From contig NZ_MSRR01000001.1 in the NCBI RefSeq assembly GCF_001956585.1, positions 1-64,000 on the forward strand: a DNA stretch of 64,000 bases. Direction: 5' to 3'. The DNA comes from Actinomyces naeslundii (GTDB lineage: Bacteria > Actinomycetota > Actinomycetes > Actinomycetales > Actinomycetaceae). The translations under genes were made by a program, and so were the position numbers. Under the pieces are notes generated by a model. That model was not told where the DNA came from and did not search any database. It worked only from the letters and a program-made list of their open reading frames with translations. Positions 4,502-63,671 of this stretch are shown here, piece after piece (the first letter of the stretch is position 1; each line of letters starts with the position of its first letter).

Positions 4502-4566
4502 CGCCGGTGCTCCCCTCGAGGGCTGTTACGGTCCACGCGGAGCGGGGGGCGGCAGTGCACTGCGCT

Positions 4567-4679
4567 GATCGGGAACGTACCTTTTGATCGAGGACTGAGT
4601 TCTCCCGCAGACGACTGAGGGGGGACGTCAGTGGTTTGCGGGATGGGTACGTTCTGGATCGAGAACGCAGTTCCCGATC
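4567..4679. repeat. Palindromic intergenic repeat, copy 2
   Basis: Left arm 4567-4619 begins GATCGGGAACGTACCTTTTG and ends CCCGCAGACGACTGA. Right arm 4628-4679 begins TCAGTGGTTTGCGGGA and ends GCAGTTCCCGATC. The arms pair over their outer 10-12 bases and around the loop, while the middle words (GTACGTTC, GATCGAG, CTGCGTT) appear in swapped order between arms. It lies between two convergent genes and could act as a terminator-like structure, but its internal organisation is shared with the copies at 810 and 50654. Confidence 0.85.
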
Positions 4680-51238: not shown

Positions 51239-52471
51239 CTAAATGCGCGTCCTTGCCGTCTTGTGCGTCACCTTCCAGGCCCGCCTGGCTCCCTCCAGGG
51301 CGGCGGGAAGAGCGGCGAGTAGGCGCTCGACGTCGTCGGGGCTCGTCTCCCGGCCCAGGGAGCAGCGCAGTGTGGAGCGGGCCGGCCCCTCCTGAAAGCC
51401 CATCGCCAGGAGCACATGGCTCGGCTGGGCGACCCCGGCGTGGCAGGCCGAGCCCGCGGACGCATCGATCCCGGCCAGGTCCAGGGCCATGAGCAGTGCC
51501 TCGACATCGGCCTCCTCGAACCACAGGTGCGCCGTAGAGGCCACATGATCGGCATCCTCGGGCAGCGTGGCGTGAACACCCGGAAGCGTCCCGGCACCCT
51601 CCAGAATCCGGCGCCGCAGCACCGCCAGCCGGGACTCCTGCTCCTGCTGCTCGGCGACCGCCAGCTCTACCGCCAGGGCCAGCGCCCGGGCCGCCACCAC
51701 GTCCTGCGTGCCCGAGCGAATCCCTCGCTCCTGACGGCCCCCGCCCGTAGCCGGCGTCAACGCCAGGTCGCGGCGAAGCACCAGCGCTCCCACTCCCACC
51801 GGCGCCCCCAGCTTGTGCCCTGTCAGGCTCATCGCGTCCAGCCCCCAGCCGTGGAAGTCCACGGGAACCTTCCCCAGGGCCGCGACGGCGTCGGAGTGGA
51901 CGGGTACGTAGCCGGCCTCGTCGGGGTGCCCGGTACCGCTCGCCCCCCGCACGCGCGCCACCAGCGCCGCCATGTCCTGAACCACGCCGGTCTCATTGTT
52001 CGCCGCCATGACCGAGACCAGGGACGCGGGGGAGCGGCCGGTATCGGCTGCCGGCGCCACCGCCCGGGCCAGAGAGTCGAGCTCGACTCTCCCCGCGCCG
52101 TCGACCTCCAGCAGGCTCAGCCCCGCGCCCAGCTCGGCCACGGCGGTGCGCGCCGAGTCCAAGACCGCCGGGTGCTCGATCGGAGAGACCACCAGACGCC
52201 CGCCCGGCAGCGCTCGTGCCCGGCCCGAGACCACCAGGGCATCGGCCTCCGTACCGCCGGAGGTCAGCAGCACCTCGTGCGCATCCACCCTCAGAGCGAC
52301 CGCCAGGCGGGCACGCGCCTCCGCCAGCAGCGCCCCCACCCGTCGGCCAGCGGTGTGCTGCGCGCTCGGATTCGCCCAGCCATCGAGCCCACTGGTCAGG
52401 TCCTCGGCGACCTGCCGGGCGACCTCGGGGCGGACCGGGGATGTGGCGGCGTGATCGAGATAGGTGCGCAC
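51239..52471 (-). CDS. Cysteine desulfurase (NifS/IscS family)
   Basis: Removes sulfur from cysteine as an enzyme persulfide for tRNA thiolation and Fe-S cluster assembly. The 410-residue PLP enzyme has TYLDHAATSPVRPEV at the start, NETGVVQDM, the PLP lysine in SLTGHKLGAPVG (about 219), RSGTQDV and the catalytic Cys in AGSACHAGVAQPSHVL (about 343), where most homologues have GSACSSG. GTG start. Its upstream region begins 15 bp away with the 141-bp direct repeat that opens the island, so its promoter may lie in or beyond that repeat. Confidence 0.93.
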   Translation of the reverse strand: MRTYLDHAATSPVRPEVARQVAEDLTSGLDGWANPSAQHTAGRRVGALLAEARARLAVALRVDAHEVLLTSGGTEADALVVSGRARALPGGRLVVSPIEHPAVLDSARTAVAELGAGLSLLEVDGAGRVELDSLARAVAPAADTGRSPASLVSVMAANNETGVVQDMAALVARVRGASGTGHPDEAGYVPVHSDAVAALGKVPVDFHGWGLDAMSLTGHKLGAPVGVGALVLRRDLALTPATGGGRQERGIRSGTQDVVAARALALAVELAVAEQQEQESRLAVLRRRILEGAGTLPGVHATLPEDADHVASTAHLWFEEADVEALLMALDLAGIDASAGSACHAGVAQPSHVLLAMGFQEGPARSTLRCSLGRETSPDDVERLLAALPAALEGARRAWKVTHKTARTRI

Positions 52472-52485
52472 ACCCCCAGCCTAGA

Positions 52486-52626
52486 CGGCGGCTCAGAAGA
52501 GCCGGACTTTGTCCACATGGGACGACTTTGAAACCGCTTTTCGCATGTGGAGCCGGCCCGTAACGCTCTGACCTGTATAGATGCCAATGGCTCTCGACCG
52601 GCTCGTCGCCAAAGCCGTCCCATACG
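52486..52626. repeat. 141-bp direct repeat, left copy
   Basis: Identical over 141 bp to 62261-62401 and in the same orientation. It includes an internal inverted repeat (TCCACATG ... CATGTGGA). It begins 15 bp upstream of the cysteine desulfurase start and is followed directly by CAGGGGGTCGGCAAAG, probably the end of the ISAs1-like element. Confidence 0.97.
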
Positions 52627-52659: not shown

Positions 52660-53822
52660 TTGGGTGATGAGCTTGATGGCGCGTTTTGGTTGTCGTGACA
52701 GGGATCTGGTGGTGGAGGCGATAGCGGCTTGGGCGCCGTGGGCCAGACGGATGATGCCGGGTGGTCAGGTTGCGCAGGGCGGCCATGATCTCGGGGCCGT
52801 TGCGGGTGCGCAGCTGGTGGCGGTCCTCATCGAAGACGACGTCACGGACCGACGTGGAGCCGGTTCTCGATTCCCCAGTGCCCTTGGACCCAGGCGGCAA
52901 CCTGCTCAGGCTGGGCCTGCTCCATGGGCAGTGAGCAGATCAGGTATGCCACCTCAACGTGCTTCCTGCCCTTGATGGTCCTGGTACGTTGGACCTGGAG
53001 AACCTGAGCCGCTGCGGGGAAGTCCACCCACTTGGGTGCCTGGACGGCCTCGGGCGGAGCGCCGCACCCGCCGCCCATGGCCGGTGTCGACGCTCGAGAC
53101 GGACGGGACCTGCTTCCAGGGCAGGGCCTTGAGCGTCCTGCGCAGAGTCTTCTGGTTGCCTTTGACGGTGAGCACGTAGCGGCCGCCCTGATCGCGGATC
53201 CACTGGGCGGTGTCCACCTGTGTGTGCATGGCATCTGCGATGACCACTACCCCGTCGAGGTCGAGGGGCTCGAGAAGCTCTCTGATGGCGGGGACCTCTG
53301 GATGGACTTGTCCGCTACCCGGACCTGGCTCAGCACAGCGCCCATGGCGTGGTCCAGGGCCGACAGGAGGTGCGGCGCCGAGGCCTGCCCCAGGCGGGCC
53401 CCGCGCACGGTCTTGCCGTCCATCGCGATGACTGTTCTTCCCTCGACGGTGCCGGTACGAGTGCACAACCACGACCTCAGACGGGTATTGAGGTCGGTGG
53501 GGTCCAGGTCCTGCAGCACCCGCCGGATGGTCGACTCCGACGGCAGGGCCTGCCCCGCCTCCAAGCCCAGGGACCGCAGATCAGACGGGGTCAGGTCGGT
53601 GGTGTGCTCCCAGATGGCCGTCAGGCTCCGGCAGCCTGCGAGCACTCCCGTCACGGCCAGGGACAGGACCGTGAACAGGCTGTGGCGCACGCCCCGCCGA
53701 TCCCGGGGGGGGGGCGGTGATGTTCCTAAAGAACCTGGGCCAGGGGCTGGCGCGACAGGGCAGACGTGGTGGAGGATGACATCAGCGCGAGCTCCCAGGA
53801 CGAGGAGATGACTAGACACCAC
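52660..53822 (-). pseudogene. Broken ISAs1-family transposase
   Basis: Read leftward from 53822, successive frames give RHSLFTVLSLAVTGVLAG, TVIAMDGKTVRGARLGQ, HLLSALDHAMGAVLSQV, then after a frameshift DGVVVIADAMHTQVDTAQWI and YVLTVKGNQKTLRRTLKALP, and after another AWVQGHWGIENRLH and VVFDEDRHQLRTRNGPEIMA. These are the ordered DDE segments of ISAs1/H-repeat transposases, with at least three frameshifts, so it is not functional. A run of ten G (53705-53714) lies near the N-terminal end. It abuts the left direct repeat. Confidence 0.85.
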
Positions 53823-53963
53823 TCATCTCATCGTCCCTACGGGGCCCGCGCCCCCGTCCCAGCGACACACCACCCCCATCAAAACGGCTCACACACCCTC
53901 ACCCACCAACCTTGCCGATCCCCTGAGGCATGATCACCCTGAGGAGAAAACCCGTGAAACTGC

Positions 53964-54150
53964 CCCTTCACCCCCGACGACAAGAAATATAACCGAACCG
54001 TTAAGCAGATCAGATACGAGATCGAAAGGGTCATCGCGAACACCCAAGGACCTGGAGGATCCTGCATACCGGCCACAGAAGATCATCGGAAACTTTCCAG
54101 ATAACCGTTAGCAGTCCTCGAAATCATATTCGTCTAAACCCCATGAATAA
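53964..54150 (+). pseudogene. C-terminal fragment of an IS5-like (DDE_4) transposase
   Basis: PFTPDDKKYNRTVKQIRYEI and ERVIANTQ, then in another frame WRILHTGHRRSSETFQITVS, match the C-terminal part of DDE_4 transposases. One frameshift is present and nothing of the catalytic centre remains. The N-terminal type of fragment lies 1.9 kb further on at 55839. Confidence 0.6.
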
Positions 54151-54225
54151 AACTCCATATTAGACACGCCAAGACAACAAATTCCCTAAGAATATGGGCA
54201 AAACAGCGGCAGCAAGCGGAGGTCA

Positions 54226-54470
54226 GTGGAGGTGGTTCACCTGATCTGTTCCCTGCTTGTGATCGATGCTCAGCCCTAGCAGAGCGCAGTCTGGTCCGGT
54301 GCCACTGGCGAATAGAGAAATGGCCCCGCTGGGTCCGAGATGTCGTTTTACGAGGATCGACACCAACTGCGCACCGCAAACTATCCCGAGACTATGGCTG
54401 CGCTGTTTAACCTGGCTTTCAACCTCATCCGCCTCTGCCGCCGACCCTGCCTGTTCGCAATAGGTTCTAA
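54226..54470 (+). pseudogene. Second ISAs1-type C-terminal fragment
   Basis: VEVVHLICSLL, HWRIEKWPRWVRDVV and, one frame over, YEDRHQLRTANYPETMAALF repeat the order of the C-terminal segments seen in the element at 52660-53822, but on the opposite strand and far more diverged. It contains stops and frameshifts. Confidence 0.7.
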
Positions 54471-54559
54471 GAATGATGGTCGATCGGACCAGTTGACCGC
54501 CGCAATTGACAACCTTTCCCAGCTGGTCTGCGCCGAGGCCGTCGATGATGAGATGAGAA

Positions 54560-54960
54560 GGTTCCGATACAATCGTCCTTTCCCAGGTAACGCCCTCGCC
54601 TTCTTCATCGCCAGGCTCGTACATGCGCGTCGTCACCGGCAACGAGGCCAGTTACCGGGTCAAGGTTTCCACCGCGGTCGCTAGCTCCTTCACCTCGAAG
54701 TGTCGGAGGATCCTTCCCTTCTTAACCCGCCAAGATGGCGAAGACGAGCGCCGCAGTCGTATCCTAGTCAGGAAGCGCCTCTACGTCAGCACCTACTGCT
54801 CTCCAGCGACAGTGTCGTGACGATGCCGTCGCAGCACGGACCTCCTACTACAACTGCCATCGCTCCTACGCTTCTGCCTATCATGACCAAACACATGCCG
54901 CTCAACCCGCGTCACGAACACCATAGCCTCACGCAGTTATTAGACTCCTTAAATCAGTTA
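54560..54960 (+). pseudogene. Decayed IS481-family transposase fragment
   Basis: MRVVTGNEASYRVKV, RILVRKRLYVSTYCS and, after a frameshift, SYYNCHRSYASA and HAAQPASRTP parallel the better-preserved IS481 integrase fragment at 61879-62235 (RVVTDNGANYRAQS; RILAEECLYTRTYTS). Catalytic residues are lost (VVTDNG has become VVTGNE). Confidence 0.65.
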
Positions 54961-55079
54961 TCTACTGATTGAGGATCTAGTTAACTAGGTGGTGCAGATC
55001 TTGTCGGGAAAGTGGTTGATTCTCTTCCGGTAGATGTCGCTCCGTCGTTCAATAGTCTTCGCATCTTCGAGGTTTCTTT

Positions 55080-55697
55080 ATGTCTATAAAAAAGCAATTC
55101 AGTGTGACTGTAGTTCTGTTTGAAGATTTCGAACTGCTCGACGCCTGCTGTCCGGTCGGACTGATGTCGCGTTTCCCTGAACTTGGTATCACTATGGTGG
55201 GGGCGCACGTCGGTGGTGTGCGAAGTTATCGAGGTGTAAGTGTTGCGGCAACAAGAGCATATGATGATGTGATCGAAAGCGACATCATTCTCGTCCCTGG
55301 AGGGAGGGGGGCTCGGAGAATCGTTCATGACAAAGTATTCCTTTCCCGCCTCCGGAGATGGGGTGAGGGGGCCAGTGTCATCGCCTCCGTCTGTACTGGA
55401 GCGGCGATACTTGCATCGGCTGGCCTGCTCGACGGGTGTAGAGCTACATCAAATAAGCGGGCATTTTCCTGGGTTAAACAATTTGGTTATGATGTGACCT
55501 GGGTTTCTCGTGCTAGATGGGTACATGATGGAAATCGATGGACTTCATCTGGGGTGATGGCTGGCCTGGATATGACTGTGGCGTTGCTTGTGGAACTCTA
55601 CGGACAAGATCGGGTTAAGAAAGTCGTGGACGAGATTGAATACCTCCCATGTAATGACGCTGACGATGACCCATTCTCTTCGGTGTCGATTGTTTAA
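55080..55697 (+). CDS. DJ-1/PfpI-family protein
   Basis: A 205-residue intact protein of the glutamine amidotransferase-like DJ-1/PfpI superfamily. It begins FSVTVVLFEDFELLDACCPV, has the Glu-side IILVPGGRGARRI and the nucleophile elbow SVCTGAAILASAGLLDG with Cys105, then the TSNKRAF segment and DGNRWTSSGVMAGLDMTVALL, as in isonitrile hydratase-like and ThiJ proteins. The ribosome site is GAGG, 7 bp before ATG. GC is well below the core genome. It stands alone among IS wrecks; a link to the peptide cassette is possible but unproven. Confidence 0.85.
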   Translation: MSIKKQFSVTVVLFEDFELLDACCPVGLMSRFPELGITMVGAHVGGVRSYRGVSVAATRAYDDVIESDIILVPGGRGARRIVHDKVFLSRLRRWGEGASVIASVCTGAAILASAGLLDGCRATSNKRAFSWVKQFGYDVTWVSRARWVHDGNRWTSSGVMAGLDMTVALLVELYGQDRVKKVVDEIEYLPCNDADDDPFSSVSIV

Positions 55698-55838
55698 AAA
55701 TGCGCATGTCTTGAGAGATATTGAGTTTTAATTGTTGGGATGCTGAAAGTGGGGTAAAGGGGGTTTATTCATGGGGGTGTTTAGAATGTTTTAAAGGGGT
55801 GTGTCGCTAAGTAAGGTGGCGTTGCTCTTGGGAGAGTT

Positions 55839-56095
55839 TTGGTGTCTAAGTCGACTCAACGTAGTGGCACGAGGATCACTTGCAGCGAGGTTGTGGACCT
55901 GTGCGAGAGGATTTACACAGAGAACCCCGATTTGCCGGTGGTCGGGGCCCGGGTGCTGGGCCTGTTCCTGTGTGTGTCTGGCTCTGACCTAACTGGGGCA
56001 CAACCTGCCCCAGGCGTTGCTCGCCGTGGCCTACGACGTCTCGCAGGCCACCGCCTCACGCATCATCGCCGCCTACCTTGACTCATGATACCTTG
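55839..56095 (+). pseudogene. N-terminal fragment of an IS5-like (DDE_4) transposase
   Basis: RITCSEVVDLCERIYTENPD and LPVVGARVLGLFLCVSGSDL, then one frame over GHNLPQALLAVAYDVSQATA and SRIIAAYL, form the N-terminal helix-turn-helix region of a DDE_4-type transposase. It is cut at about 56085, and a different element starts soon after. Confidence 0.6.
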
Positions 56096-56184
56096 GTGGT
56101 TTTCGGGGAGGTCGGTGTGAGTTTTCGTTGGTATTGCGGTGTTGGGGGGGGGTGGAGCACTAAGAGGCCGTATGGTGTGCTGGT

Positions 56185-57010
56185 GTGAGCCCGTTTCTGC
56201 GCAAGGTCAGGACTGCTTCGGGGACCATGGCGATGCAAATCGCGGTCAAGGAGAACGGCGTACGCCGGATTGTGGAGCACCTGGGGCTCTGCCCACGACG
56301 AGGCCGGGCTGGCCGCCCTGATGGAGGCTGGGCGGCAGAAGATTGCTGCCTGGCAGGGCCAGGGGCTGCTGGACCTGGAGTCCCTAGAACCGTCACCGGA
56401 CGTACCGGCCTTGTGGGTACCACGTGGAGGCCAAGCGCTTGGCTCTGCTGTGGGAGGTCCTGCACGGGGCCTGCACCTACCTGGGGCTGGGCGAGGCGGT
56501 CGGGGTGATCGGGCTTTTGAGCAGATGGTGCTGGCGCGTTTGATTGAGCCGTCCTCCAGGGACCAGGTCCCCCGTGTCCTGGGTGATCTGGGCCTGGATG
56601 CGGTCAGCGTACGGACCTTTCCCTGGGACGTTGTGTCGAGCGGGGCTACCGGGAGGCGATCTCTCAGGCCCTGTTTGATCACGTCATTGCCACCAGGGTA
56701 CTGGCCCGATGCCTGCAGGAGTGACCACGCTCTACTTCGAGGCTGAGCGTGAGGACGACCTGCGGCAGGCGGGTTAGTCCAAGGAGAGGAGGGTCGATCC
56801 GCAGAGCATCGTGGGCCTGCTGGGCGACCGCCACGGGTTCCCCCTCCAGGTCGGCTGCTGGAAGAGCAACCGGGCCGAGACTACCGCGATCATCCCCGTC
56901 GTGGAGGCCTTCCAGGCTGGTCACGGCATGAGGAGCTCATCATTGTCGCCGACGCCGGCATGCTCTCAGCCTCTAACGAGCGTGTTCAATGGTTCGTGAG
57001 CCCTTGTGGA
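56185..57010 (+). pseudogene. Broken IS1634-family transposase
   Basis: From GTG 56185: SPFLRKVRTASGTMAMQIAV, VRRIVEHLGSAHDEAGLAAL (frame change), MVLARLIEPSSRDQVPRVLG, TTLYFEAEREDDLRQAG then a stop, SKERRVDPQSIVGLLGDRHG and IIVADAGMLSASNE. These occur in the order of IS1634 transposases, with a stop codon, several frameshifts and no C-terminal half. It also contains apparent deletions. Confidence 0.8.
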
Positions 57011-57429
57011 GGGACTGGCACTGATGGCTGCTACCGGTGATGACGACAGGGCTTCTGCTGGTGGGCGGGATGTGGTCTACCAGGTGCGCTCGGCTGGGGC
57101 TCAGGACGGCTTGTTCGAGCAGACCTGGTGCCGGGCAGGTGAGGATGATCGGGGCTGATGGCCTGCTGCCGGCCCTGCACCAAGGGAGACCCTGGAGAAG
57201 GACCTGGCCGCTTGGCTTGAGCGACCATCTGGGCTACGACAAGGGCGAGCCGATCACCTAAGCACACGGCAGTACTAGGAACGGGAACACGTCCAAGACG
57301 GTGAACCCGCCTGGATAGGCCCCTTTGAGGCCTGTGGTGCCTCGGGACCGGGCCGGGACCTTCACCCCGCACCCGGGTAGAGCTAAACAGGCAGTGTCCA
57401 AGAAAACTATAGCAGAGTTCGATGCAGTA
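57011..57429. other. Unassigned remnant DNA between IS1634 fragment and MFS gene
   Basis: A 419-bp GC-rich stretch with no intact frame. GRDVVYQVRSAGAQDG (about 57063) could be a further scrap of the IS1634 transposase. GC drops sharply from about 57395, where the MFS-side DNA begins. Confidence 0.5.
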
Positions 57430-58689
57430 CTAACTGACAGCCTTGCCGGTTCCCGGAATAAGTAAATGTGCTCTAATGAAATCGAAAGCAATCCCGGTCA
57501 CAAAGAATAAAACCGCTATCATGAGCCAGCCACTTGGATTGTTCATCCCAACTACAAAACCAAATACTGTCGAAGATGCAAACTGTCCCGCATCCTGTAA
57601 TGCATTAAAAACGCCTTGATATTCTCCAATTCTATTTTCGGACGCCATTTCGTACGAAAAGGACCATCCTGAGGCCGCTTGAAATAGTTCTGCAACGGTC
57701 TGAAGAGCGACAACTGCAAGTAACACGATCTGTGCGCACAGCGCTGGTAGAAATCCAGTTGGGGCAACTAAAATACATGCAAACGTGAGTAAAATTCCAG
57801 ACCATTTGGCAAGACGCAAAGATGCGCTAACATCAACTGCAATCGCTCCAATTTTCACTTGCAACAGCACCACGGCAATCGTATTAATTATAAGCAAAAC
57901 TGACGATGTCCAAAGAGGAATCGTCGTACAGGAAGCAATCCATAATGGAATTCCGAAAGTTAAAAAGCTCTCGCATAGAACTAGCACGGAGGAAAGTATC
58001 GACACCAAGAGAAATAGATGATTCTTAAAAGCCGGCGTTGTTTGAGAAGCAATGCTGTGAGTTAATGAAATTGTCTTTTCAATATCAACTTCATGGGTAA
58101 CAATTAGACCTACGAGTATGCTACTTACAATGAACGTTCCCGCATCACCCAAGATTGCAGCTACATATACCGATTCGGTATTGAAGGCCAAAACTATTCC
58201 TCCAATACCGGCTCCCAAAGCTGCCATTCCGTTTGCTACAGAACGTACTTGAGCTCTGAAACGGACACGATTACTCGGATCGACAAGTAGAGCCACCAAA
58301 GCTCCGCGTGCAGAGGCCGCTCCACTTTCAAAAACTCCAGCAGCAATAATGACCGCTCCGCATAAATAGTGTATTTTCAGGAAGGATAGAAGTAGCATTA
58401 CCAGTGCTTGCCCCAATAATAATACCGAGAAAATTAGTTTAGGTGAAAGACGATCAGAGAGCCAACCAAAACAAGCGGCCGACAACACTCCCGTTGCTGC
58501 AGCAGCGGACATCCATAACCCAAGACCTGCTGGATTTAAACCAACAATACGAACAAAGTACACAGCAAGTATCGAGAGAAAAACCCCGTTCCCTAGAGAA
58601 TTGATTCCAACCGCAACTATAAACTGCGCATTCGGCAATTGTCCTTTAAATCGAGGGATCGCGTTAATTATCTTCATAATGCGATTCAC
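57430..58689 (-). CDS. MFS transporter of the peptide cassette
   Basis: A 419-residue major facilitator with about twelve spans. The motif A loop between TM2 and TM3 reads FGWLSDRLSPK; the centre has a long cytosolic loop (HEVDIEKTISLTHSIASQTTP, about 200-220). Codon use and GC are unlike the core genes. The GTG start follows AAGGAACAC. It is the last gene of the leftward cassette, separated from the small peptide gene by a terminator and a new TATAAT box, so it can be expressed on its own. Export of the mature peptide product, or self-protection, is the natural inference. Confidence 0.8.
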   Translation of the reverse strand: MNRIMKIINAIPRFKGQLPNAQFIVAVGINSLGNGVFLSILAVYFVRIVGLNPAGLGLWMSAAAATGVLSAACFGWLSDRLSPKLIFSVLLLGQALVMLLLSFLKIHYLCGAVIIAAGVFESGAASARGALVALLVDPSNRVRFRAQVRSVANGMAALGAGIGGIVLAFNTESVYVAAILGDAGTFIVSSILVGLIVTHEVDIEKTISLTHSIASQTTPAFKNHLFLLVSILSSVLVLCESFLTFGIPLWIASCTTIPLWTSSVLLIINTIAVVLLQVKIGAIAVDVSASLRLAKWSGILLTFACILVAPTGFLPALCAQIVLLAVVALQTVAELFQAASGWSFSYEMASENRIGEYQGVFNALQDAGQFASSTVFGFVVGMNNPSGWLMIAVLFFVTGIAFDFIRAHLLIPGTGKAVS

Positions 58690-58759
58690 ATGTGTTCCTT
58701 AATTCAGAAAGTCCAGCAAGGCATTCCAGAATAGCTACGCTAATTAACTCGCTGTTTCC

Positions 58760-58765
58760 ATTATA
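58760..58765 (-). promoter_or_regulatory. TATAAT -10 box before the MFS gene
   Basis: A perfect leftward TATAAT about 70 bp upstream of the MFS start and about 40 bp downstream of the terminator hairpin. No convincing -35 element is visible at 16-18 bp. Confidence 0.45.
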
Positions 58766-58801
58766 GCGTTAGCGCATCTTTAAAATTCTGTTAAAAAGGA
58801 G

Positions 58802-58836
58802 TGGCGCTGACACCTTAAAAACAGGCGTCAGCGCCA
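58802..58836 (-). terminator. Intrinsic terminator after the small peptide gene
   Basis: TGGCGCTGAC pairs with GTCAGCGCCA (extended by a few more pairs) around an AT-rich loop. Read leftward it is followed by CTCCTTTTT. It lies 44 bp past the peptide stop and would give a short, abundant transcript for the peptide, with reduced read-through into the MFS gene. Confidence 0.85.
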
Positions 58837-58879
58837 ATCTCTGAAGGCAACCTGTTAGGATGGCCAACAGATAACGGAG

Positions 58880-58993
58880 TCAGGACTTGCTGAACACCGT
58901 AGCCGACTTGTCATCACCAGAACGAGGCTCTGGCATGATGATCATGCACGAAAACTCTAGTGCAAGATCTGACTGATCATTCTCTCGAATCAT
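58880..58993 (-). CDS. Candidate RiPP precursor peptide, 37 aa
   Basis: A 37-codon frame between the hydrolase and the MFS gene. N-terminal part MIRENDQSDLALEF, centre SCMIIMPEPRSGDD, end KSATVFSKS. It has one Cys (16), a hydrophobic patch CMIIM (16-20), PEPR and a Ser/Thr/Lys-rich C-terminus with Phe34. The ribosome site AAAGGAGGTGA (58999-59009) is a perfect 11-nt match to the 16S anti-SD, 5 nt before ATG, which is rare and indicates a highly translated gene. A TATAAT box and a T-tailed terminator frame it. Adjacent to a SPASM radical SAM enzyme, it is the obvious substrate. It lacks the FxSxx-COOH end, SCIFF cysteines and the mycofactocin tail. Confidence 0.75.
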   Translation of the reverse strand: MIRENDQSDLALEFSCMIIMPEPRSGDDKSATVFSKS

Positions 58994-58998
58994 TGTGC

Positions 58999-59033
58999 TC
59001 ACCTCCTTTCCAAAATAAACTAAAATCATTATA
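58999..59033 (-). promoter_or_regulatory. Promoter -10 box and extended Shine-Dalgarno of the peptide gene
   Basis: Leftward TATAAT at 59033-59028, just beyond the hydrolase stop (59037), followed 18 bp later by the 11-nt ribosome site AAAGGAGGTGA (59009-58999). The leader between them is AT-rich. The -35 region inside the hydrolase end is poor (CTCAAT-like), so the promoter assignment is moderate; the ribosome site is certain. Confidence 0.6.
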
Positions 59034-59036
59034 CTT

Positions 59037-59903
59037 CTAACCAATTGTAAATTGAGTCTTTAGAGCCACCCATCGTTGAATAGCTTCTGGCGCTGAGATC
59101 TCGTCAATTAAAAATACGAGAGATAATGAAATCTTGGGAGAAACATAAAAACCTACGTCATTGATGAGCCTTAATCGATTAGCGATTTCCACTTTTCCGA
59201 TCGAATGTCCTAAGTTGCGACGTTGAACAGAAGATAAGTACTTTGGAATATATTCGGCCGAAACCTGCTTTCGCAATACAGAAATCATAAAATTTTGACA
59301 ACTTTTCGACAATAATGTTCCGCCAATAGCCTGCCTTATCAAGTTAGAAATATCTCTAGGTGTCGAAGTGTTGTATTGACAGATACTTCTAAGAGTACTG
59401 TCAGAAGGTGTTTTGTGTGGCTGAGTCTGAACATGTTCGAATAACTCATCCCAATAACGTGGGCGTGGATTGTGGCGGCATCCCAATGCCATTAAGTTGA
59501 TATCGAGTATACTACTATTAATAGTAGTATTTGTCAGACCAGATCGTACGCAAAAGTTCTGAATTGTGTCAATGCCAAGCCGTCCCAGAAAATAGTCAGC
59601 AATAACACTGTTGTTCTGCGACGCCATGACACAAAGAAGTTCCGACATCTTCATGGTAGACGTATCGCGACGAAATAAAGTGTGGTCTGCGTCGTTGTGC
59701 AACTCAGCGACGGGAATCACTTCAGTCAACGACAACCGACCTTTGTCGACTTCAGCGAGCGCAGCTGCGAGAATAATTAACTTTATCACGCTTGCCATAT
59801 GGAACTGCAGGTTTGGATTCCTCTGGCCTATCACGTTGCCCGTTGAAAGATCCGCGACTATGTATCCGACTCTTGCATCTTTGATTTCATTCTGTGTCGT
59901 CAT
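59037..59903 (-). CDS. Cytoplasmic serine hydrolase of class A beta-lactamase fold
   Basis: A 288-residue protein with no signal peptide. The class A pattern is recognisable: Ser38-x-x-Lys41 in HMASVIKL, Ser95-Gln-Asn97 in the SDN position (VMASQNNSVIADYFLGRLG), the helix STPRDISNLIR (180-190) and RLRLINDVGFYV. The KTG triad is replaced by Ser234-Ile-Gly (GHSIGKVEI), and no E166-x-x-L-N loop is seen, so beta-lactam hydrolysis is unlikely. It begins 4 bp after the radical SAM stop with no ribosome site, implying coupled translation. Leader removal, an ester or amide step, or product-specific resistance are possible roles; all are inference. Confidence 0.8.
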   Translation of the reverse strand: MTTQNEIKDARVGYIVADLSTGNVIGQRNPNLQFHMASVIKLIILAAALAEVDKGRLSLTEVIPVAELHNDADHTLFRRDTSTMKMSELLCVMASQNNSVIADYFLGRLGIDTIQNFCVRSGLTNTTINSSILDINLMALGCRHNPRPRYWDELFEHVQTQPHKTPSDSTLRSICQYNTSTPRDISNLIRQAIGGTLLSKSCQNFMISVLRKQVSAEYIPKYLSSVQRRNLGHSIGKVEIANRLRLINDVGFYVSPKISLSLVFLIDEISAPEAIQRWVALKTQFTIG

Positions 59904-59907
59904 CAGT

Positions 59908-61329
59908 TTAGGAATCGCTTATCGATACTTTACTTGCCGCTCCCGAATGACTTAGAATGGATATAACATCTTGCTGCTCTGCAAAACAATTCTCTGGCTT
60001 ACTCGATAGATCATAGGTTCTGTAACGTGCCCATGTCATTGCTCGACATTCGCCTGCACAGGCAGCACGAAGACTGCAGGACTGGCACTGTTCTGCAACG
60101 TCGTCGTTCCTGTAATCTCTCATGAATTGGAGGAGCGGAGAATCTAACCAAATTTTGTCAGCTTTGTCTGTTTTTATAGTGTTTGGCCAGACTCTATTTT
60201 CTGGCTCTTGTAGGTTATTACATGGATATACGTTGCCTCGAAAATCGAAGTATAACCATAGTGTCCCTGCTCTGCAGAATAAAGATCTATCTTTTTCTAT
60301 ACGTTGGTCAATCGGACAGTCAATGATCAGGTTAGGTGCTTTTTTTCTCCCGTCAGCGACCATTCGTGCTACTTCGGCGTACTCATACGCAGACATAAGT
60401 ATGTTATTCTCCTTAGCCTGTCCGCATGGAACAGCGGGAATGATGCGAAGCATACGAACGTTGTGCTCTACCGCAAGCTGAATCATTTCAGGTATGTCAT
60501 ATAAATTGTCTGCTTCATGCGCTCCTTGTGGCTGAATTATCATATTTACTTCAGCCTGAAGTCCTCTATCAACCACGGCGTCTATAGCATTTAGCGCTGC
60601 TGCATGTGAATCGACGCGGCGCGGTGCTTTGCGTAAAAGATTTTCATGGACGGGGTCAGGAGAAGAAAGCGAAATTTGATACGAATTAATTCCCGCTTCT
60701 TCAAATCTATCAATATACTCAGGAATCCTAAATCCTGTTGTAAGCATATACATGCGATTTGGCCGACGCCCTAATCGATCCTCTGATTCGTTGCTTATCA
60801 TTCTAGCAATCTCGAGAGTTTCTTCAGGATTCACGGTGGGTTCACCGCCAGTAAGACACCATTCGACGGCGCCGAAGGTATTGATTAGGGGCGCTACAAC
60901 GTTATCCCGTAATTGCTCGACAGAATAAAATTCATTGCGAACTTTATTTCTGGGAGGAATATAACACCAACTACATCCGTAGTTGCAATATGGTGTTACT
61001 TCGATAATGGAGTTAGGTGGAGTTATGATACCGTCGTCGAACTGAGGTAGTTTATCGGCAAGGTAAACTGGATCGAAATTTCCATATTTCGGCATGTTTT
61101 CATTTTCGAACGATCTTGACATTTCGATGACGTAATTTTCATCAAGATTCATTCTTCTAGCTGATTTCAGTATTGATTTCTCGTCAACTGCGTTAGGCTT
61201 TAAGCGATCGAAGCCAGACATGTAGGCCAGATATGCTTTTAGTGCTTTTTCGTCGCAACGCCAACGTCCTTTATAGTATGCGTCGATAATTACATACTCT
61301 GCTGCTTCTTTGATAATTATGGCGTACAT
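59908..61329 (-). CDS. Radical SAM/SPASM peptide maturase
   Basis: A 473-residue enzyme. The radical SAM cluster motif is Cys115-x3-Cys119-x2-Cys122 (TPYCNYGCSWCY), followed by LTGGEPTVNP (161-164 GGEP). The C-terminal SPASM domain has the full seven-Cys pattern: Cys352, G365-x4-Cys370, Cys415-x2-Cys418-x5-Cys424-x3-Cys428, and Cys448, enough for two auxiliary 4Fe-4S clusters as in PqqE, AlbA or anSME. Residues 1-100 lie before the barrel and could form a PqqD-like peptide-binding domain. ATG 61329 is chosen because GAGGAG lies 8 bp upstream; 30 more codons upstream lack one. It probably cross-links or epimerises the 37-aa peptide. Confidence 0.92.
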   Translation of the reverse strand: MYAIIIKEAAEYVIIDAYYKGRWRCDEKALKAYLAYMSGFDRLKPNAVDEKSILKSARRMNLDENYVIEMSRSFENENMPKYGNFDPVYLADKLPQFDDGIITPPNSIIEVTPYCNYGCSWCYIPPRNKVRNEFYSVEQLRDNVVAPLINTFGAVEWCLTGGEPTVNPEETLEIARMISNESEDRLGRRPNRMYMLTTGFRIPEYIDRFEEAGINSYQISLSSPDPVHENLLRKAPRRVDSHAAALNAIDAVVDRGLQAEVNMIIQPQGAHEADNLYDIPEMIQLAVEHNVRMLRIIPAVPCGQAKENNILMSAYEYAEVARMVADGRKKAPNLIIDCPIDQRIEKDRSLFCRAGTLWLYFDFRGNVYPCNNLQEPENRVWPNTIKTDKADKIWLDSPLLQFMRDYRNDDVAEQCQSCSLRAACAGECRAMTWARYRTYDLSSKPENCFAEQQDVISILSHSGAASKVSISDS

Positions 61330-61878
61330 AGTTTGTCTCCTCTGCCAGGTCGGCGGTCGTGGAATCTGTTGATAGCTTTTGCTGATGGCTAGGATAGGTG
61401 CGAGAAACATTGGTGTCAATGATTTTTTCGTAATTCGACGCTATACGCGGCAATTTGTCAGACGTCCGACTTGATGTCGGTTGCGAATTTCGAATGAAGC
61501 TGTTTCTCTTGTTGAGTTTTGGCGGTCTACTCATTTGTAGATTACCCACAAGGCGTTATTTTATTCATCAACATTAAGTTAGGTGCGACATGAAGCGTTT
61601 ATATAATGACAAAGGTTAGTCAAACCTAAGTTCAGTTTCTCGTTGTTGGCTGACTGGGGTTGGATAGTGTTGGGGCCAGTGCTACGGGATGCCCCTATGT
61701 GCTGCGTCAAGTGGCAGTGGGGTAGTTTCGTGGCTGGTTGTGGGTCGTAGAGGGAGCCGTTGCAGATCACGCATGAAGGGTCAGGATGCGGCGTTGGTTG
61801 GAGCGAGTGCGACCTGGTTGTGACGCTTTTTTGGTTTCGTTTGCGCTGGTAGTACGTCCTCGATATCGGATTGGGGCA
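61330..61878. other. AT-rich upstream region of the peptide cassette, 549 bp
   Basis: Low GC up to about 61650, then a return to high GC. It should hold the cassette promoter, but I find no clear -35/-10 pair leftward of the radical SAM gene. No intact gene is seen; the right part (about 61780-61878) may be the start of the damaged IS481 element. Confidence 0.5.
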
Positions 61879-62235
61879 TATGGAGGCAAAGGAGCCAGGG
61901 CCGGCTACACCTACCTGCACACCGCCATCGACGGCTTCTCCCGCCTGGCCTACACCGAGGCCCTCGATGGATGAGAAGGCCTCCACCACGATCGGCTTCT
62001 TCTGCCGCGCTCGGGCCTCCATGGCGTCACCAGGCTCGTGCGGGTCGTCACCGACAACGGGGCGAACTACCGCGCCCAGAGCTTCATCGCGAACATCACG
62101 TCCCTGGCCTCACGCCATCAGAGGATCCGCCCCTACACCCCACGGCACAATGGCAAGGTCGAGCGCTACAACCGCATCCTGGCCGAGGAGTGCCTCTACA
62201 CCCGCACCTACACCTCACAGCAGCAGCGCCACGAC
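61879..62235 (+). pseudogene. Truncated IS481-family transposase
   Basis: AGYTYLHTAIDGFSRLAYTE (first Asp of the DDE triad), a frame break near 61970-62035, RVVTDNGANYRAQSFIANIT (second Asp) and RPYTPRHNGKVERYNRILAE (Glu). It ends abruptly after YTSQQQRHDA where the family normally continues with the HYNYHRPH tail. The break leads straight into the right 141-bp direct repeat. Confidence 0.8.
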
Positions 62236-62260
62236 GCCGTCGCAGCCCCCACCCGTCGGC

Positions 62261-62401
62261 CGGCGGCTCAGAAGAGCCGGACTTTGTCCACATGGGACGA
62301 CTTTGAAACCGCTTTTCGCATGTGGAGCCGGCCCGTAACGCTCTGACCTGTATAGATGCCAATGGCTCTCGACCGGCTCGTCGCCAAAGCCGTCCCATAC
62401 G
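62261..62401. repeat. 141-bp direct repeat, right copy
   Basis: Identical to 52486-52626. The 17 bases just before and into it (62245-62261, GCCCCCACCCGTCGGCC) are also identical to a piece inside the cysteine desulfurase gene (52332-52348), as if this copy were a rearranged duplicate of the desulfurase 5' region with about 138 bp missing. It marks the right border of the island. Confidence 0.95.
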
Positions 62402-62555: not shown

Positions 62556-63671
62556 ATGCGTACCAACCAGCTAGCCCTGTCCCGCTCCGCCACCGACCGC
62601 GATGCCGAGCGGCGCAGCGAGCCAGGGCTACTGGAGCGCCTCGCCGCCGACCCCGAGACCCGGCTCCTGCTGGTCGACGCCCGCGGCCGCGTCGCCCTGA
62701 CCGGCCCCGCTATCCACCCCGACCTGCCCGACGACGGCCTCACCCCGCCCAGCCTCATCGGCAGCCCCGGCGCCACAGCCTGGGAGGGTCCCGGCACCCG
62801 CAGCGGCTGGGGCCTGCCCGATCTGCGCGCCGGCTACCTCGGCGGCTCCGCCCCCACCCGCTCACCGGATCTGACCGTGCTCTACCTGGGCCGCGAGCAC
62901 GCTGACGACGGCGCACCCGCCGGCCCCAGCTGGATCGCCGTCGTCGTGCCCCCGGCCCTGGAGGTCCCCGACGCCCCCGAGCCGCCCGCCACCGGCTCCG
63001 ACGCCGAGGGCACCGCCGTCGACCACCCCGACCTGCGCCGTCTGCTGGAGCGCTACCCGCTCTCCGCCCTGCGGGCCATGGGCGCCCAGATGACGGCCCG
63101 CGACGCCGGCCTGGCCACCACCGCCACCGCCTTGGCCGCCTGGCACGCCCGCTCCGCCTACTGCCCGGCCTGCGGCGGGCGCACTGAGGTCACCGAGGCC
63201 GGCTGGGCCCGCAGGTGCACCGACTGCGCCACCGTCCACTTCCCGCGCACCGACCCGGCCGTCATCATGACGGCGACCGACGAGTCCGACCGTCTCCTCC
63301 TCGTGCGCGGCGCCACCTGGGCGCCCCGGCGCTACTCGGTGGTGGCCGGCTTCGTCGAGGCCGGAGAGTCCGTCGAGGCCGCCGTGGCCCGCGAGGTGTG
63401 GGAGGAGACCGGGCTGCGCGTGGCCGAGGTCGAGTACGTCGCCTCCCAGCCCTGGCCCTTCCCCCGCTCCCTCATGCTCGGCTGCCGGGCGCGCCTGGCC
63501 CCAGGTAAGGACCAGCCCCGCCCCGACGGTCAGGAGGTCGTTGAGGCGCGCCTCGTCTCCCGTGACGAGCTCACCGCGGCCGCCGACGACGGCAGCATCC
63601 TCCTTCCCGGCCCCACCTCTATCGCCAGACTCCTCATCGAGGACTGGTACGGCGGTCCCATCGTCAGCTGA
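62556..63671 (+). CDS. nudC: NADH pyrophosphatase (Nudix)
   Basis: Cleaves NAD(H) and NAD-capped RNA to NMN(H) and AMP. The 371-residue protein has an N-terminal domain, a zinc ribbon (CPACGGRTEV ... CTDCATVHFPRTDP, about 205-230), the Nudix box GFVEAGESVEAAVAREVWEE followed by TGL, and the NudC signature SQPWPFPRSLMLG just after it. ATG 62556 has GGAGAG 8 bp upstream; a longer frame from 62322 starts inside the direct repeat. It begins 155 bp beyond the island border and pairs with uvrD2 as in Mycobacterium. Confidence 0.95.
   Translation: MRTNQLALSRSATDRDAERRSEPGLLERLAADPETRLLLVDARGRVALTGPAIHPDLPDDGLTPPSLIGSPGATAWEGPGTRSGWGLPDLRAGYLGGSAPTRSPDLTVLYLGREHADDGAPAGPSWIAVVVPPALEVPDAPEPPATGSDAEGTAVDHPDLRRLLERYPLSALRAMGAQMTARDAGLATTATALAAWHARSAYCPACGGRTEVTEAGWARRCTDCATVHFPRTDPAVIMTATDESDRLLLVRGATWAPRRYSVVAGFVEAGESVEAAVAREVWEETGLRVAEVEYVASQPWPFPRSLMLGCRARLAPGKDQPRPDGQEVVEARLVSRDELTAAADDGSILLPGPTSIARLLIEDWYGGPIVS

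Follow-up and report, generated by a model that had tools for sequence, protein, structure and literature searches.

A rare radical SAM/SPASM maturase with an adjoining short cysteine-containing peptide on an inserted segment of the Actinomyces naeslundii chromosome: a candidate RiPP cluster of an unnamed subfamily

Gene content and insertion site of the cassette

The 64,000-nucleotide stretch of Actinomyces naeslundii DNA analysed here (the window) contains four genes read leftward, which encode a radical SAM (rSAM)/SPASM maturase, a beta-lactamase-like hydrolase, a short peptide and an MFS transporter (Table 1). An initial annotation had described these as a low-GC cassette inside a high-GC chromosome, and we found all four genes in place, with a GC content of 0.38-0.48 at about 57.4-61.6 kb as compared with about 0.70 elsewhere in the window. 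The strongly translated peptide mentioned there was likewise recovered as a 37-codon frame, whose ATG is preceded by the consensus ribosome site AAGGAGG (AAGGAGGTGAGCACAATG). Because the maturase and hydrolase genes are separated by 4 nt and the hydrolase and peptide genes by 43 nt, the three genes are likely to be read from a single transcript. Of the terminator-like hairpins in the region, the strongest starts 43 nt past the peptide stop codon, between the peptide and MFS genes; across the region, terminator-like sites are not more numerous than in shuffled sequences. A strong hairpin at this place fits a highly expressed small peptide.

Table 1. Features of the cassette and of the insertion carrying it
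Feature	Position in window	Strand	Basis
Left 141-bp direct repeat, end of IS-type transposase gene, insertion boundary	52486..52626	.	100% identical to 62261-62401
DJ-1/PfpI family protein, 205 aa, pathway membership uncertain	55080..55697	+	Pfam PF01965 1.3e-23
MFS transporter, 419 aa, presumed exporter	57430..58689	-	Pfam MFS_1
Terminator-like stem-loop, 14 pairs then T-rich tail, 3' of peptide gene	58802..58836	-	
Candidate precursor peptide, 37 aa, MIRENDQSDLALEFSCMIIMPEPRSGDDKSATVFSKS	58880..58993	-	Consensus SD; match to ORF beside L002 maturase
Signal-less class A beta-lactamase-like protein, 288 aa	59037..59903	-	Pfam PF13354; NCBIfam bla_class_A; PDB alignment; motifs
Radical SAM/SPASM maturase, 473 aa	59908..61329	-	Pfam PF04055, PF13186; family alignment; AF2 model
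Sigma-70-like promoter candidate, TTGACA-17-TATCCT, upstream of maturase	61391..61419	-	Consensus match only
Right 141-bp direct repeat, insertion boundary	62261..62401	.	100% identical to 52486-52626

The cassette sits on a 9.6-kb, partly low-GC insertion between perfect direct repeats, and related genomes lack this insertion at the site. The end of a transposase fragment of the integrase-core type (rve_3, 62038-62346) extends into the right repeat. The insertion is flanked by genes for a cysteine desulfurase (51239-52471) and for a NudC-like protein (62559-63671), the latter being 93-95% identical in eleven close congeners, and in related genomes these two genes are neighbours at a site free of the cassette. 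One repeat copy joins them in three congeners, and in two others they abut within about 100 bp; these junctions identify the whole 9.6-kb stretch as an insertion, and the whole cluster was inserted between the cysteine desulfurase and NudC genes. IS remnants are scattered inside the insertion, and given their presence throughout it, it is possible that the cluster is silent or in decay.

The maturase and its relatives

The complete SPASM motif noticed initially is present: seven SPASM-type cysteines (C352, C370, C415, C418, C424, C428 and C448) were found, together with the rSAM motif CX3CX2C (C115, C119 and C122), and all ten are invariant in an alignment of four family members. The rSAM core extends over residues 109-267 approximately (PF04055, 3.8e-21) and the SPASM domain over 352-448 (PF13186, 1.2e-4). 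Full-length relatives were found in only two other genomes, a Defluviitaleaceae MAG (L002) and a Clostridia genome (G330). A pattern scan over the genomes of 85,000 species gave a single relative, that of L002, which is 36% identical over the full length to the window maturase, and searching 391 Clostridia genomes by profile added G330, whose two tandem paralogues are 34% and 29% identical to it. The maturase thus occurs in three genomes among about 1,700 searched by profile, and order-level and phylum-level profile searches yielded no further members. It is absent from 48 congeners, 199 other members of the family and 395 other genomes of the phylum, and scans of viral contigs, phages and plasmids gave distant rSAM proteins only. 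We rejected candidates from three genomes, which scored 108-116 bits as compared with 685-753 bits for the members and whose rSAM loci lack the EFSCM-bearing peptide explained below, and also two other rSAM loci in which inspection revealed no such peptide.

The window maturase reaches no family cut-off in NCBIfam, its best scores being 55-66 bits where the cut-offs are 284-625, and its paralogues, with up to 84 bits, are also below the cut-offs. The initial annotation could name no RiPP class matching the combination with a signal-less beta-lactamase-fold hydrolase, and the maturase lies under the cut-off of every NCBIfam maturase family. Since the scores of the heme, PQQ and MoaA families equal those of the thioether families, no chemistry is singled out. 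A profile search of the PDB gave anSME, PqqE, SkfB, CteB, TigE and BlsE among the best matches, and in PADLOC the rSAM core matched only viperins, weakly. The AF2 model of the maturase is weak (mean pLDDT 50); structural comparison of its rSAM part (VIA) matched PqqE, SuiB, SkfB and BlsE. In this modest-confidence model, residues 1-76 are predicted to have the RRE-like order beta-beta-beta-helix-helix-helix, a topology that fits an RRE. The N-terminal domain has no Pfam PqqD match, and when searched alone it matched no RRE in the PDB; hhalign gave a probability of 6-23%.

The peptide and the neighbouring proteins

A check proposed in the initial annotation was to examine whether a short frame co-occurs with maturase homologues. 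In L002, a same-strand frame of 44-45 aa ending QTNQVVEFSCMGQCPDVGEE lies beside the maturase gene and aligns with the window peptide as IRE-NDQSDLALEFSCMIIMPE / IREISPQTNQVVEFSCMGQCPD, so that the two have IRE...EFSCMxxxP[DE] in common. It is the top match to the window peptide among 217 short ORFs there (score 39, the runner-up scoring 29), and shuffling the L002 peptide 20,000 times gave as good a score in only 9 cases. The single Cys of the window peptide is kept, with an acidic residue at Cys+6 in both. The L002 peptide ends 5 residues past the aligned Pro, and the window peptide has a 15-residue C-terminal tail, PRSGDDKSATVFSKS. In G330, a 22-aa ORF, MKVIKKQSKKKSVVSCKIIGIC, with a strong SD starts where the second maturase gene ends; this ORF is convincing by position only, with no significant similarity to the window peptide (1,327 of 20,000 shuffles as good) and no acidic residue. 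Because an IS3 element lies directly behind it, the natural end of this frame is uncertain.

At the sequence level, two bacterial phyla thus share a maturase paired with a short EFSCM peptide. This pair in L002, taken with the lack of any matching NCBIfam family, gives good support to a rare, unnamed rSAM/SPASM RiPP subfamily, and the cluster in the window is very likely a horizontally acquired representative of it. The subfamily is probably new and of a known general kind. The core claim of the initial annotation, a new rSAM/SPASM RiPP system having the peptide as substrate, is therefore supported with regard to the maturase and the L002 peptide, and less firmly at the third locus, where the peptide is assigned by position only. 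Such a precursor/maturase family is missed by current curated models, and it is so rare that similarity networks may leave its members as singletons.

A different reading is that the maturase acts on its own, as an rSAM/SPASM enzyme whose substrate is a protein or a small molecule, like a sulfatase maturase or BlsE, and that the short ORF arose by chance, as chance short ORFs are plentiful in any locus and anSME and BlsE rank among the best PDB matches. We regard this as highly improbable, because in each of two unrelated genomes the EFSCM peptide adjoins the maturase, and it outscores all other short ORFs, and because neither sulfatase nor sugar-nucleotide genes were seen in the cassette. For the anSME-type maturases, which the initial annotation had named as a refuting case, the window maturase scores 43.5 bits against a cut-off of 349 (TIGR03942), and no sulfatase is found among the insertion genes.

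Transporter genes are present at all three loci: an MFS gene in the window (MFS_1, 3.4e-18; nearest plasmid homologues, Streptomyces MFS proteins of about 24-33% identity), two ABC genes in L002 and an MFS gene in G330, whose product is barely similar to that of the window. The exporter role given initially to the MFS protein gained no support beyond gene position, and the exporter type differs between the loci. This is how RiPP clusters are built, the exporters being exchangeable and the substrate-enzyme pair conserved. L002 carries a second rSAM protein, whose top NCBIfam score is to PapB (107 bits).

The hydrolase belongs to Beta-lactamase2 (PF13354, 2.3e-25) and has neither a signal peptide nor an N-terminal extension, the class A match starting at residue 7. 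The SxxK (S38) and SxN (S95) motifs are kept, and KTG is changed to SIG and SDN to SQN; with these alterations and 60 bits against the bla_class_A cut-off of 200, we did not assign it to class A beta-lactamases. Its catalysis is uncertain because of the altered KTG motif, and its AF2 model, made for the protein alone, is unusable (mean pLDDT 35). No relatives were found in plasmids or in 38 congeners, and in the available L002 and G330 sequence the gene is absent from both loci. One suggestive correlation was noticed, in that L002, having no hydrolase, has a peptide without the long C-terminal tail.

The initial annotation assigned the hydrolase to processing or protection on the strength of its position; since the gene is not common to the relatives, we leave its role open. 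We take it to be a locus-specific addition, for which tail trimming or self-protection are both conceivable. We consider it doubtful that it is a cytosolic serine peptidase cutting off the C-terminal tail after modification. The closeness of its gene to those of the maturase and the peptide, the kept SxxK and SxN motifs and the end of the L002 peptide soon after the aligned Pro are in accord with this idea, and its occurrence at one locus only, the changed KTG and the unusable model speak against it. A broader proposal, a new RiPP class in which an unprecedented SPASM modification on EFSCM...P[DE] is combined with a cytosolic beta-lactamase-fold protein trimming or guarding the product, also appears unlikely. 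If the beta-lactamase-fold partner does act on the peptide, it would represent new RiPP enzymology. In the literature on rSAM RiPP clusters that we searched, neither a beta-lactamase nor a DJ-1 protein is reported.

The repeat-bounded insertion is a larger unit than the four genes annotated initially, as it also holds the DJ-1/PfpI gene, whose GC content is 0.51 as compared with 0.63-0.73 in congener homologues. The idea of a DJ-1 protein as a shared core enzyme arose from L002, where such a gene lies directly downstream of the maturases and the protein is 41% identical to that of the window; it was weakened by a phylogenetic tree and was not retained. In this tree, whose forks have supports of 80-93 with none of them starred, the window protein falls among the ordinary chromosomal DJ-1 proteins found in congeners, to which it is 47-53% identical, whereas the L002 protein groups with proteins of Paraclostridium, Moraxella and Sodalis, all without an rSAM neighbour. 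The separate placement leaves a shared inherited role unsupported. There is also no DJ-1 gene on the G330 contig, which is cut off 148 bp before the first maturase. A conserved tailoring function in the pathway is hence quite unlikely, and independent recruitment or coincidence remain as explanations for its presence at both loci.

Proposed pathway and comparison with known systems

In the pathway that we propose, the RRE-like N-terminal domain of the maturase would recognise the N-terminal part of the peptide, including the conserved IRE. The cluster bound by CX3CX2C would generate the 5'-deoxyadenosyl radical, and the enzyme, with its SPASM clusters, would modify the EFSCMxxxP[DE] segment. 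The most likely modification would be a Cys-centred thioether, in which the conserved Cys is linked to a residue close by, possibly the acidic one at Cys+6. The modified peptide would then be trimmed, no dedicated protease being evident in the cluster, and the product may be exported by the MFS protein.

One specific form of this proposal is a sactipeptide- or ranthipeptide-type thioether, with the maturase as a distant outlier around StsB, CteB and PapB, so that known chemistry would act on a new peptide. We give this form nearly an even chance. StsB (NF045574) is the best NCBIfam match of one paralogue over residues 108-422 (74.6 bits) and is in the top five for the window maturase, and the profile search of the PDB also retrieved CteB and SkfB. 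Against this, the window maturase has 59 bits and its best paralogue 75 bits for StsB, whose cut-off is 625, and the window maturase has 52 bits for PapB (NF047865), whose cut-off is 340; the heme, PQQ and MoaA families score alike, and an acidic residue is missing from the G330 peptide. The spacing of PapB is CX3D, which differs from the CX5[DE] of our system. A Cys-to-acidic cross-link as in PapB/freyrasin ranthipeptides would suit the conserved Cys and Asp/Glu of the window and L002 peptides, since PapB is reported to join Cys to Asp/Glu (PMC9413430).

With regard to other known systems, the hydrolase resembles class A beta-lactamases in fold family (PF13354), SxxK and SxN, and differs from them in lacking a signal peptide and KTG and in its score far below the equivalog cut-off. 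TigE (8vpo) is the only solved protein with which the maturase aligns from the N-terminus (profile residue 3 to chain residue 13), although the E-value is 6e-11 and no precursor similarity is known. The maturase also resembles CteB (SCIFF-type, 5wgg) and SkfB (6efn) in its RRE-length N-terminus, rSAM core and SPASM/twitch region at near-equal offset, with E-values of only 4e-12 and 7e-13. SCIFF peptides have six Cys, whereas the window peptide has one. Streptosactin biosynthesis has a dedicated protease, GggC, plus regulators (PMC8172795); neither a GggC-like protease nor regulators were seen in the window cluster, the maturases score 52-75 bits against the StsB cut-off, and the peptide sequences are unrelated. 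The likeness to streptosactin GggA/GggB lies in a SPASM maturase whose rSAM core is preceded by about 100 residues, in an adjoining short Cys peptide and in a thioether product, which is plausible for the window system (PMC8172795).

The insertion and its boundaries

The 9.6-kb insertion, which lies between the cysteine desulfurase gene and the NudC gene, is flanked by identical direct repeats of 141 bp (100% match), and the empty site is present in several congeners. Several insertion sequences are left as remnants within it.

Repeats and insertion-sequence remnants in the window
Feature	Position
Direct repeats	52486-52626; 62261-62401
Region of remnants	52900-57300
DDE_Tnp_1-type remnant, frameshifted	52954-53822
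Further fragments	near 54.2-54.8 kb and 56.0-57.3 kb

Codons of the shared EFSCM segment

In both phyla, EFSCM is encoded by the identical 15 nucleotides GAGTTTTCGTGCATG, at 58943-58957 (-) in the window and at about 4560-4574 in the Defluviitaleaceae locus L002.

Other loci encountered

Downstream of the Clostridia G330 cluster, LHSSVVLFE translations recur at L006 9900-13210, and these repeats look like a CRISPR array. Three small radical SAM genes stand in tandem in G1292 (L014 5858-9240). On Aureibacter tunicatorum plasmid pAT1 (L019 3607-7935), three consecutive DUF1843 small proteins neighbour a radical SAM protein as well as a methyltransferase and a ligase of the RimK type, making a possible RiPP cluster. 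A fecal scaffold filed as phage (L018, MT836237.1, 6930-11155) carries two radical SAM enzymes, an ABC transporter and a possible Cys-rich peptide of 39 aa, MMDSEKICNCDNSCETEPEEIIIDMPGCSANAANNYYSI, and looks like another RiPP locus.
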